From positions 62,001 to 126,000 of the forward strand of contig CACWPM010000007.1 of assembly GCA_902762795.1 (NCBI GenBank): a stretch of 64,000 bases of DNA, read 5' to 3'. The DNA is from Fibrobacter succinogenes. GTDB taxonomy: Bacteria; Fibrobacterota; Fibrobacteria; Fibrobacterales; Fibrobacteraceae. The notes below the pieces were generated by a model. That model saw only the letters and a program-made list of their open reading frames with translations. It did not search any database and was not told where the DNA came from. The translations under genes and the position numbers were made by a program. Shown here in pieces: positions 34,435-37,370 of the stretch. Numbering within the stretch: the first letter of the stretch is position 1; each line of letters opens with the position of its first letter.

Positions 34435-36567
34435 ATGAAACAGTTTCTATTCATCATTCTTGTTTGCGCCGTTTTTTCATTTGCGCAGTCCGGATTTTCC
34501 ATCAACAGTAGCGGAATCCACGTTCCTGGAGCACGAACCCTCAGTCCAGGAGACCTGTTTGTCATGGGCGGTTTCGAAATGGCCAGTACCAGCAAGCCGG
34601 CTAGTATTGAAGGGTATCTCCTCGATGAAAACGGAGAAAAAAGAATGCTCTCCGAAAATGTCCCGTCAAATTCCATCCTTGGATATGTCGGTTACGGACT
34701 CCTCGATTATCTGGAATTGGGGCTCAATCTGAACTTTCACTACGATGGAGATGCCGGAAATACAAAACTGAAGGGACTTGGCTTCGGCGACCTAGGACTC
34801 TTGGTCAAGGCTCAACCTCCCAGCCAAACCGCAAGAGACCTTCTGAACGCAGCGGCTGCAATCGAAATATTTATTCCCACGGGAACAAACGAAAAAGGAC
34901 TCCGCCCGAGGCACCTTTGGTACATTCACAAAGACGGAACGACGCACTCCTACTCCGCAGCGGATTTCGCCATCGCCGGGACCCTTTATTTAACGGTCAG
35001 CATTCATAGAAACCTACGCTGGAATAATTATATAGGTTTGCTAAGAACTTTGGAAAATGGCGAAAACGTCTTTACATACGGTTCTGGCATCAACCTATTC
35101 CCCTATGAATGGGTCTCGTTAGTTCTTGAAGTCTCGGGCGAAACTTGGATCCGTTCCAAAAAAATTCTAAGTGGATTTGCAAACGACCAGTTGAGATTTT
35201 CACCCGGCCTAAAAGTCCGCTTGCCAAAATTCACGACACTATCCATCAACGCCGACCTCGGCATGGATCTTTTCCGAAAACGCAAAATCAGCCGAGGACA
35301 TGCGATTACAGTAAAGAATAACGGGCATAGGTATTCTTACACCGTTGCTGGAAGCCCTCCCATTGCGGCATCTATCAAGCTAAGTCGGACTTTCGACCTC
35401 AGTGGAAGGATTGAAGATTACAAACACCGCATGGACTTGTGCCCCAAGTCTAGCCGTTCATTAAAAGAAAACGGTTACAAATGTGCGCCTGATACCGACA
35501 ATGACGGTATTGCCGACGATATGGACAAATGCCCGGATACACCGCCAGAAATTCTTATCGATGATGTCGGATGCCCGTTCGACCAAGATAAAGACAACGT
35601 TCCAGACTATAAGGACCAGTGTCCCGATACAAAGCTCGGATATCCGGTTAATGAATTTGGATGTATTCGCGATGCCGATAACGATGGCATTCCAGACGAA
35701 CTAGACAAATGCCCTGAAAGTTCTCCGGACGAAGAAATCAATGAATTTGGATGTGTTATGGACAGCGATGACGACGGCGTGCCGAACGTTCTCGATTCCT
35801 GCCCGAATACGCCTGCAGGACTCACGGTAAACAAGTTTGGATGTTTCTTGGACAAAGATGAAGATGGCGTACCGGACGAATGGGACCAGTGCCCGAACAG
35901 CGCTCCTAAAGAAATCGTGAACATGTACGGTTGTCCCATCGATTCCGATGAAGACGGAATCCCTGATTTTATGGACAAATGTGAAAAAACTCCGAAGGGC
36001 GTGATGATCGATAGCGTTGGTTGTAGAGTGGACCTCGATGGTGACGGTGTTTTCGAAGAAGACGATAAATGCCCGAACACTCCCGAAGACGCTCCAGTCG
36101 ATAAAATGGGCTGCCCCGTCGATTCCGACAAGGACGGCATTTTCGACTATCTCGACAATTGCCCAAACACACTAGAGCGCACCGAAGTGGACAAGAACGG
36201 ATGCCCTATCCGAGAAAAGCAAAATCTGGATAAAATCGCTAGACGCATTCTGTTCCACAAAGGTTCTGACAGGCCTCTCAATTCCTCTTACACTGCATTG
36301 AGTGACGTGGTATCGATTATGCGCCACAATAAGCAGATTGCCATTGAAATCCAATGCAGCGTAAAACCTGGCGAAGCGATGGTTCCACAAGCTCTCTCAG
36401 ACGCTCGCGCGACCGTCATCTACGATTTTATTGTAAACAAGGGAATTAAGGAAGAACGGCTTAAGGCAATGGGCTACGGATTACAACTCCCGGCAAATGT
36501 CCGCGGACACACCAAATTAAACCCCGTTGGCGTGAGGCTTTTGCCATATAATATGACGGAAGAATAA
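34435..36567 (+). CDS. OmpA-like outer membrane protein with thrombospondin type 3 repeats
   Basis: Residues 1-18 are a signal peptide (FLFIILVCAVFSFAQ). Residues 25-340 form a probable beta-barrel. Residues 352-592 are eight thrombospondin type 3 repeats of the form D-D-DG-PD-D-CP, each with regular Asp positions and paired cysteines expected to bind calcium. Residues 600-700 are an OmpA-like domain (ILFHKGSDRPLNSSYTALSDVV, SDARATVIYDFIVNKGI, RLKAMGYG) that normally contacts peptidoglycan. Similar proteins serve as gliding or type IX accessory outer membrane components in Bacteroidetes, but that role is inferred. The start is ATG 34435. Transcription is divergent from the transglycosylase operon. 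Confidence 0.9.
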   Translation: MKQFLFIILVCAVFSFAQSGFSINSSGIHVPGARTLSPGDLFVMGGFEMASTSKPASIEGYLLDENGEKRMLSENVPSNSILGYVGYGLLDYLELGLNLNFHYDGDAGNTKLKGLGFGDLGLLVKAQPPSQTARDLLNAAAAIEIFIPTGTNEKGLRPRHLWYIHKDGTTHSYSAADFAIAGTLYLTVSIHRNLRWNNYIGLLRTLENGENVFTYGSGINLFPYEWVSLVLEVSGETWIRSKKILSGFANDQLRFSPGLKVRLPKFTTLSINADLGMDLFRKRKISRGHAITVKNNGHRYSYTVAGSPPIAASIKLSRTFDLSGRIEDYKHRMDLCPKSSRSLKENGYKCAPDTDNDGIADDMDKCPDTPPEILIDDVGCPFDQDKDNVPDYKDQCPDTKLGYPVNEFGCIRDADNDGIPDELDKCPESSPDEEINEFGCVMDSDDDGVPNVLDSCPNTPAGLTVNKFGCFLDKDEDGVPDEWDQCPNSAPKEIVNMYGCPIDSDEDGIPDFMDKCEKTPKGVMIDSVGCRVDLDGDGVFEEDDKCPNTPEDAPVDKMGCPVDSDKDGIFDYLDNCPNTLERTEVDKNGCPIREKQNLDKIARRILFHKGSDRPLNSSYTALSDVVSIMRHNKQIAIEIQCSVKPGEAMVPQALSDARATVIYDFIVNKGIKEERLKAMGYGLQLPANVRGHTKLNPVGVRLLPYNMTEE

Positions 36568-36594: not shown

Positions 36595-36627
36595 TGTGAA
36601 AATAATCACATTGTGAGAACATTCACA
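36595..36627 (+). promoter_or_regulatory. Two tandem CRP-type operators
   Basis: TGTGA-AAATAA-TCACA (36595-36610) and TGTGA-GAACAT-TCACA (36612-36627) are both perfect matches to the CRP consensus TGTGA-N6-TCACA. They are centred 17 bases apart. The second is centred about 42 bases before the predicted transcription start of the 19-codon gene, the class II activator position. Confidence 0.7.
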
Positions 36628-36649
36628 TCGGAGACCTTCTAAATCTACG

Positions 36650-36655
36650 TATATT
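36650..36655 (+). promoter_or_regulatory. Predicted -10 element of the microgene
   Basis: TATATT fits a -10 box, placing the start of transcription near 36662. No good -35 box is present, which agrees with activator-dependent transcription from the operator at 36612-36627. Confidence 0.5.
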
Positions 36656-36681
36656 GTACTCGCAAAACAAAGGAGGGATAT

Positions 36682-36741
36682 ATGAGTGCTAACAACCGAA
36701 GCAACGACGGTGATGATTACATTCCGCCGTTCAAACCGTAA
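36682..36741 (+). CDS. 19-residue microprotein with its own regulated transcription unit
   Basis: ATG 36682 follows AAAGGAGGG, the strongest ribosome site in the window. It is read for 19 codons (MSANNRSNDGDDYIPPFKP) to TAA 36741. A terminator starts 20 bases later, so the transcript would be only about 130 bases. The peptide is hydrophilic, Asn/Asp-rich with a PPF-KP end, and has no membrane span. No gene follows on this strand, so it is not a leader peptide in the usual sense. It could be a real microprotein, or the coding part of a dual-function small RNA. I cannot assign a function. Confidence 0.6.
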   Translation: MSANNRSNDGDDYIPPFKP

Positions 36742-36761
36742 GAGTTGTTTAAATACATACA

Positions 36762-36791
36762 AAAAGCGAGTCTGAAAGGACTCGTTTTTTT
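36762..36791 (+). terminator. Terminator of the microgene
   Basis: CGAGTC (36767-36772) pairs with GACTCG (36779-36784) around TGAAAG. It is preceded by AAAAAG and followed by seven T residues. Confidence 0.85.
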
Positions 36792-36848: not shown

Positions 36849-37370
36849 TTAGTCATAGATTATTCTTTCTAACAGTTCAAATACGCCATTCGCTTTTTCT
36901 GCTGAATTCGGCAATTCGTTTATACTGAAAACGTAGAATAAGCGTTCTTTTTTATCGACGAATTCAATTTCGAAAGTTTCTCCATCCAAAGAACACACTT
37001 CGATGTTTTCGTATTCCATCACATAAGATTTAATGGCTGTTTTCAGCATCTTTAGATGACTCCCCTTTTCAAGGGCGAGTTTCTCCCAAGCACAATCTTT
37101 TTCTTTGATGGTGCAAATGTAGGCGTCGCTGGAATCGTCATTCCATTTCAACTTTCCACGTTTGATTCTATTTGCATCAAGAGAATTTATGGAGAACGAA
37201 ACAAAGTTCTCAAAGTTATCATCCAAAGAAGACAAATCATAGCGCGCATAAAAACCTATTTTCCGTTCAATGGCAATATCCATTTTGGGCGGCTTATACG
37301 AGAAGCTGTCATAGATATAATATGCAATCAGAGGTATTGCTATAATAAAAATTATCCATTTTTTGCTCAT
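36849..37370 (-). CDS. Membrane-anchored protein of unknown function
   Basis: AAGGAGA lies before ATG 37370. The N-terminus MSKKWIIFIIAIPLIAYYIYD is a single membrane anchor, and the remaining 150 residues are polar, with three cysteines (AYICTIKEKDCAWEK and EVCSLDGE). I do not recognise the family. It stands alone, with its 3' end facing the microgene terminator. Confidence 0.72.
   Translation of the reverse strand: MSKKWIIFIIAIPLIAYYIYDSFSYKPPKMDIAIERKIGFYARYDLSSLDDNFENFVSFSINSLDANRIKRGKLKWNDDSSDAYICTIKEKDCAWEKLALEKGSHLKMLKTAIKSYVMEYENIEVCSLDGETFEIEFVDKKERLFYVFSINELPNSAEKANGVFELLERIIYD

Follow-up and report, generated by a model that had tools for sequence, protein, structure and literature searches.

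A conserved micropeptide gene behind tandem CRP-like sites in Fibrobacter

Closest described systems

SpfP is a 15-residue protein of the Spot 42 RNA of E. coli and has been described as regulating CRP (PMC11955535, PMC12119635). The Fibrobacter locus considered here is likened to it by description, not by sequence, as a tiny peptide linked to CRP and to carbon state. Spot 42 works first and foremost as an RNA that base-pairs; in Fibrobacter, by contrast, only the peptide is conserved. A further difference from SpfP and Spot 42 is that the Fibrobacter CRP-like sites are of the activator type.

The class I and class II CRP promoters of E. coli offer the closest promoter comparison. Shared features are the TGTGA-N6-TCACA sequence, a class II site near -41.5, the missing -35 box, and the RExxxR helix of the regulator. 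The Fibrobacter sites differ in that they abut at 17 bp, with predicted centres at -42.5 and -59.5, and in that either one can be lost in evolution. Paper searches turned up no described CRP regulon for the phylum and nothing useful on CRP or cAMP in Fibrobacter.

In apidaecin (GNNRPVYIPQPRPPHPRL), residues P11, R12, R17, and L18 are critical, and the last eight positions are fixed while the N-terminus is free (PMC11347161). The Fibrobacter peptide is similar in length, contains YIP, has a basic penultimate residue, and likewise conserves its last eight residues behind a free N-terminus. It differs in lacking the PR and RL residues, in being acidic, and in being encoded by the bacterium itself.

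In the PapA/PapB ranthipeptide system, PapB forms Cys-Asp/Glu thioethers (PMC9413430). A PapB-like radical SAM/SPASM gene adjoins the peptide gene in some Fibrobacter species, but 29 of the 30 Fibrobacter peptides contain no Cys, and the enzyme is not co-distributed with them. TnaC-type arrest leaders also have conserved residues beside the stop codon; most Fibrobacter loci, in contrast, have no downstream co-directional gene.

The unit, its promoter, and its regulator

The window, i.e., the whole stretch of DNA analyzed, covers 64,000 nucleotides of Fibrobacter succinogenes. The unit opens with two CRP-like sites to which no strand is assigned. Site 1 (TGTGAAAATAATCACA, 36595-36610) is centred at about -59.5, a class I-like position whose spacing is kept in relatives, and site 2 (TGTGAGAACATTCACA, 36612-36627) is centred at about -42.5, a class II-like position 17 bp from site 1. 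The -10 element TATATT (36650-36655, + strand) begins 38 bp from the start of site 2. Neither a program scan nor inspection by eye found a -35 hexamer at the right spacing, which fits dependence on an activator. From the -10 element, transcription is predicted to start at 36662 (+). The Shine-Dalgarno sequence AAAGGAGGG (36669-36677, +) is followed by the micropeptide gene MSANNRSNDGDDYIPPFKP (36682-36741, +), which runs for 19 codons from an ATG at 36682 to a TAA stop at 36739-36741. An intrinsic terminator (36767-36791, +) with a CGAGTC/GACTCG stem (36767-36784) and seven T closes the unit. The predicted transcript folds better than shuffled sequences (z -2.5), with the terminator hairpin as its main stem.

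These sites, the TATATT box, the ribosome site, the frame, and the terminator had all been proposed in a sequence-only reading of the window, and each is present; the placing of site 2 near -42, relative to the start set by TATATT, agrees with the predicted centre. That reading also held that there was no downstream gene, which is correct only for a co-directional one. A gene on the minus strand (36849-37370), followed by purB, converges on the micropeptide gene and encodes a 173-residue protein with a hydrophobic N-terminus; no Pfam family matched this product. The terminator at 36767-36791 probably serves both convergent genes. The minus-strand gene adjoins the micropeptide gene in only some relatives. 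The upstream neighbor in the window is an OmpA/TSP3 gene (34435-36567), and no micropeptide unit was found behind its relatives in other Fibrobacter (L017-L022).

On their own, TGTGA-N6-TCACA sites show hardly any enrichment, occurring at 6 places in the 3.93-Mb genome versus 2 for the reversed control. One of the four other single sites falls within aroC, as judged by eye from the translation. Site pairs with a 0-6 bp gap occur four times in 80 Fibrobacter genomes and never in the control, and all four of these exact tandem pairs sit upstream of the micropeptide gene. With singles near chance and pairs at 4 versus 0, the signal is therefore the pair and not the single site. In the 64-kb window, the pair with its following -10 element is the sole tandem match.

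In double-site units, the centres of the sites lie 17 bp apart, and TATATT follows 38 bp after the start of site 2. This geometry holds in nearly all units, two being off by 1 bp. The seven-member MAKTENKK clade has a perfect site 1 and has lost site 2, and in a few other units site 1, or both sites, are degraded. An alignment of 29 units shows T64, A65, T66, and T69 of the -10 region to be invariant. Between TATATT and the ATG, the distance ranges from 27 to 37, which leaves the geometry fixed only on the regulatory side. On 16-bp sites spaced by 17 bp, two CRP dimers may get in each other's way, and simultaneous occupancy is uncertain. The unit presents the arrangement expected of a CRP-activated gene, namely a consensus TGTGA-N6-TCACA at an activating position with matching spacing to the -10 element. 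A profile built from the 29 units also matched the site pair and -10 spacing upstream of other genes, and Fibrobacter may have a small CRP regulon based on abutting sites.

A second stand-alone small-gene family encodes peptides of 32-34 residues with one hydrophobic span, e.g., MKNQDDQRIISNRFFVNFVMAFSGVVLFLMASIV, and has similar tandem CRP-like sites upstream. This single-span membrane peptide family was seen at six loci (L129, L130, L132, L135 with two copies, L136, and L139), mostly in species without the DYIPPFKP gene. Six further loci (L126, L127, L128, L131, L133, and L134) hold a gene with a secretion signal and, by eye, FecR-like sequence; it has an imperfect version of the tandem operator and TATATT spacing of the micropeptide gene. 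A perfect TGTGA-N6-TCACA also lies at L004:1501-1516 (C14:1697-1712 in the genome of the window), well upstream of a gene starting MLSYQDAYKIADTVHKGQQ, which is possibly a further CRP target.

In the genome of the window, the HTH_Crp_2 domain is complete in two Crp/Fnr proteins; a third, partial match falls within a longer frame. The first protein (L061) is a CRP of 236 residues that contains the sequence GEMSLIDGEPRSASVRT and whose gene adjoins purA. It matches cNMP_binding above the cut-off as well as HTH_Crp_2, has an intact cyclic-nucleotide pocket, and carries the recognition helix TTRETVSR, an RExxxR helix of the TGTGA-reading type. Its orthologues are found in 77 of 80 Fibrobacter species and in all 40 good assemblies, and CRP is also encoded in species without the micropeptide. 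A single class III cyclase was found, a CHASE2-transmembrane-class III cyclase (L141:91-3120) whose ATP-selecting positions hold K and D, as assigned by eye. A CRP with both a cNMP pocket and RExxxR is present alongside this cyclase in the same genome, as anticipated when a regulator of the CRP/FNR family was proposed for the unit.

The sites may instead be operators of another factor, either the second Crp/Fnr protein (L062) or Rex. L062 also has RExxxR, so the cognate regulator is not proven to be L061, and the Rex operator is a similar palindrome. On the other side, L061 alone scores above the cNMP cut-off, L062 falling under it, and no Rex domain (PF06971) was matched in the genome of the window, whose assembly is 96.7% complete, with a control that matched in 7 of 14 genomes. 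Sites upstream of a -10 element without a -35 box also fit an activator. Control by a factor other than cAMP-CRP is unlikely on these grounds, and activation of the micropeptide gene by cAMP-CRP is the likely and best supported regulatory reading of the promoter and regulator sequences.

Peptide conservation and distribution

Across species, the peptide has 17-19 residues and a variable, acidic N-terminal half. Residues -8 to -1 read D-Y-I-P-P-[F/Y]-K-P in all 30 sequences; variation is confined to -3 (24 F, 6 Y), and residue -9 is D or E. The last eight codons, in 23 distinct nucleotide versions, give a pS of 0.80, a pN of 0.019, and a pN/pS of 0.023, compared with a pN/pS of 0.64 for codons 2-10. 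With so low a ratio in the tail and silent codon change free, selection acts on the peptide; by this codon evidence, the tail is strongly selected and the remainder weakly. Such purifying selection at the amino acid level marks the frame as a protein-coding small gene. Clades differ in the untranslated parts on the 5' and 3' sides, and the peptide is kept. A terminator usually follows the frame, with similar stems in most relatives and sequences that differ between clades. The DYIPP[F/Y]KP tail had no match in viral contigs, a PDB search gave none, one peptide of the family had none in NCBIfam, and the window had none in Rfam. The micropeptide gene with its conserved two-site promoter is almost certainly real, and its product is a small protein without a previous name.

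A DNA search with the unit of the window found it in 11 of 60 relatives. The degenerate pattern DYIPP[FY]KP-stop was present in 27 of 80 Fibrobacter species, and the pattern without the stop in 29 of 167 Fibrobacterota, every one a Fibrobacter. The sequence profile built from 29 units, run over 167 genomes, recovered 30 full units in 29 of the 80 Fibrobacter species, set apart by an empty gap between E values of 8e-17 and 6e-5. It found full units in none of the 87 non-Fibrobacter Fibrobacterota. Contamination of the assembly (8%) may account for the two copies in one genome (G006).

On a purA-crp tree covering 77 species, the gene occurs in the window's clade in 17 of 18 species, the one without it having an assembly that is 69% complete. 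It also occurs in all seven members of the MAKTENKK clade, in G007, and in four scattered species; large clades are without it. This pattern indicates an ancestral gene that was vertically inherited and lost several times. Some well-assembled species have lost the gene completely, so its function is dispensable. The idea of a mobile element was rejected, as most units share the GCS2/APH/radical SAM/purB neighborhood and the distribution follows the purA-crp tree.

The sequence-only reading would have fallen had frame and operators not been conserved in close relatives; they are kept in 29 Fibrobacter species. Together with the encoded regulator and class III cyclase, and with no Rex detected, this supports its interpretation of a stand-alone gene under CRP-type control.

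Possible modes of action

Most units have a GCS2-type ligase, TIGR02172 kinase, or radical SAM/SPASM gene close by on one side and purB on the opposite side. The next gene downstream runs convergently in most of the 29 loci, which leaves no target in cis. This agrees with the earlier remark that the peptide is unlike a leader, and a leader or arrest peptide was rejected because most loci have no downstream co-directional gene. Neither synteny nor two co-occurrence searches indicated a partner for the peptide.

The tail could act on the ribosome, either by stalling it from within the exit tunnel at the peptide's own PP...KP-stop or by trapping release factors as apidaecin does. Translation is slow at PP and termination is slow at Pro-stop, and the conserved residues abut the stop codon. 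The shared YIP, length, penultimate basic residue, and fixed last eight residues point the same way (PMC11347161). The critical apidaecin residues P11, R12, R17, and L18 are unmatched, however, and the peptide is acidic, so the resemblance is a lead only; most loci, moreover, have no downstream co-directional gene for an arrest to control. A ribosome-targeting peptide is accordingly quite unlikely. Its more specific form, by analogy with apidaecin, would be a Fibrobacter-encoded translation regulator under cAMP-CRP, whose DYIPP[F/Y]KP tail would bind the exit tunnel or release factor and slow termination in carbon limitation; this is highly improbable.

Alternatively, the gene could encode a precursor that matures into a modified peptide or a cofactor derived from one: a PapB-type radical SAM/SPASM enzyme would crosslink the tail, which a carboxylate-amine ligase may also lengthen. 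PqqA and MftA are examples of short precursors whose C-termini are conserved. About ten loci place the gene between the GCS2-type ligase and the radical SAM/SPASM gene; among NCBIfam models, the product of the latter comes closest to the PapB maturase (E 1e-52, below its cut-off). The radical SAM orthologue, however, occurs in many species that lack the peptide and is absent from many that have it, so that the co-occurrence expected of a maturase is not seen. The genome of the window itself has no orthologue, only paralogues of 52-56% identity. The enzyme's gene is convergent and not co-transcribed, GCS2 is near-universal in the co-occurrence search, and PapB chemistry needs the Cys that 29 of 30 peptides lack (PMC9413430). 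Such a precursor is very unlikely. Several PapB-like radical SAM/SPASM paralogues, about 50-62% identical, were seen in Fibrobacter species (L142-L171). Modification of the peptide by one of these widespread paralogues is conceivable.

A processed signal peptide, extracellular or re-imported, with the C-terminal 8-9 residues as the signal, would recall short streptococcal pheromones. The conservation of those residues behind an acidic residue, with a variable N-terminus, suits this idea. It is nonetheless most improbable, given that the peptide lacks a hydrophobic segment for export, that neither a receptor nor a transporter was recognized next to it at the loci, and that there is no split into signal types across 29 species. 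A dual-function small RNA with base pairing as its main activity, as in Spot 42, shares the CRP-type control and the short transcript with a terminator but is equally improbable, since the untranslated parts and terminator stems differ between clades, codons vary silently so that the RNA sequence is not kept, no base-pairing segments are conserved outside the frame, and Rfam gave no match.

The best reading is a stand-alone microprotein that is activated by cAMP-CRP and acts in trans via its C-terminal motif, with a probability of roughly 0.6. That the motif acts on a protein partner is somewhat favored. The sequence of events that we infer includes CRP binding, a response to cAMP, expression, and action in trans. 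Carbon or energy limitation would raise cAMP, and CRP would occupy one or both abutting sites. From the class II (-42.5) or class I (-59.5) position, it would recruit RNA polymerase to a promoter without a -35 box. The resulting short mRNA, about 130 nt long and with a strong ribosome site, would then yield a soluble peptide of 17-19 residues. Its variable acidic N-terminal half would serve as a carrier, and the invariant octapeptide DYIPP[F/Y]KP would dock on a conserved cellular partner. Through docking, the peptide would probably modulate this partner when carbon or energy is limiting, much as SpfP does with CRP in E. coli.

Proteins of fewer than 20 residues are usually skipped by annotation, and very few have been shown to be real. 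With about 30 natural variants, a fixed octapeptide tail, and a fixed promoter, the Fibrobacter gene is a clear case of a tiny protein. The invariant tail makes partner capture directly testable. If CRP controls the gene, cAMP signaling in a main rumen cellulose degrader would gain a predicted target that is usable as a reporter.
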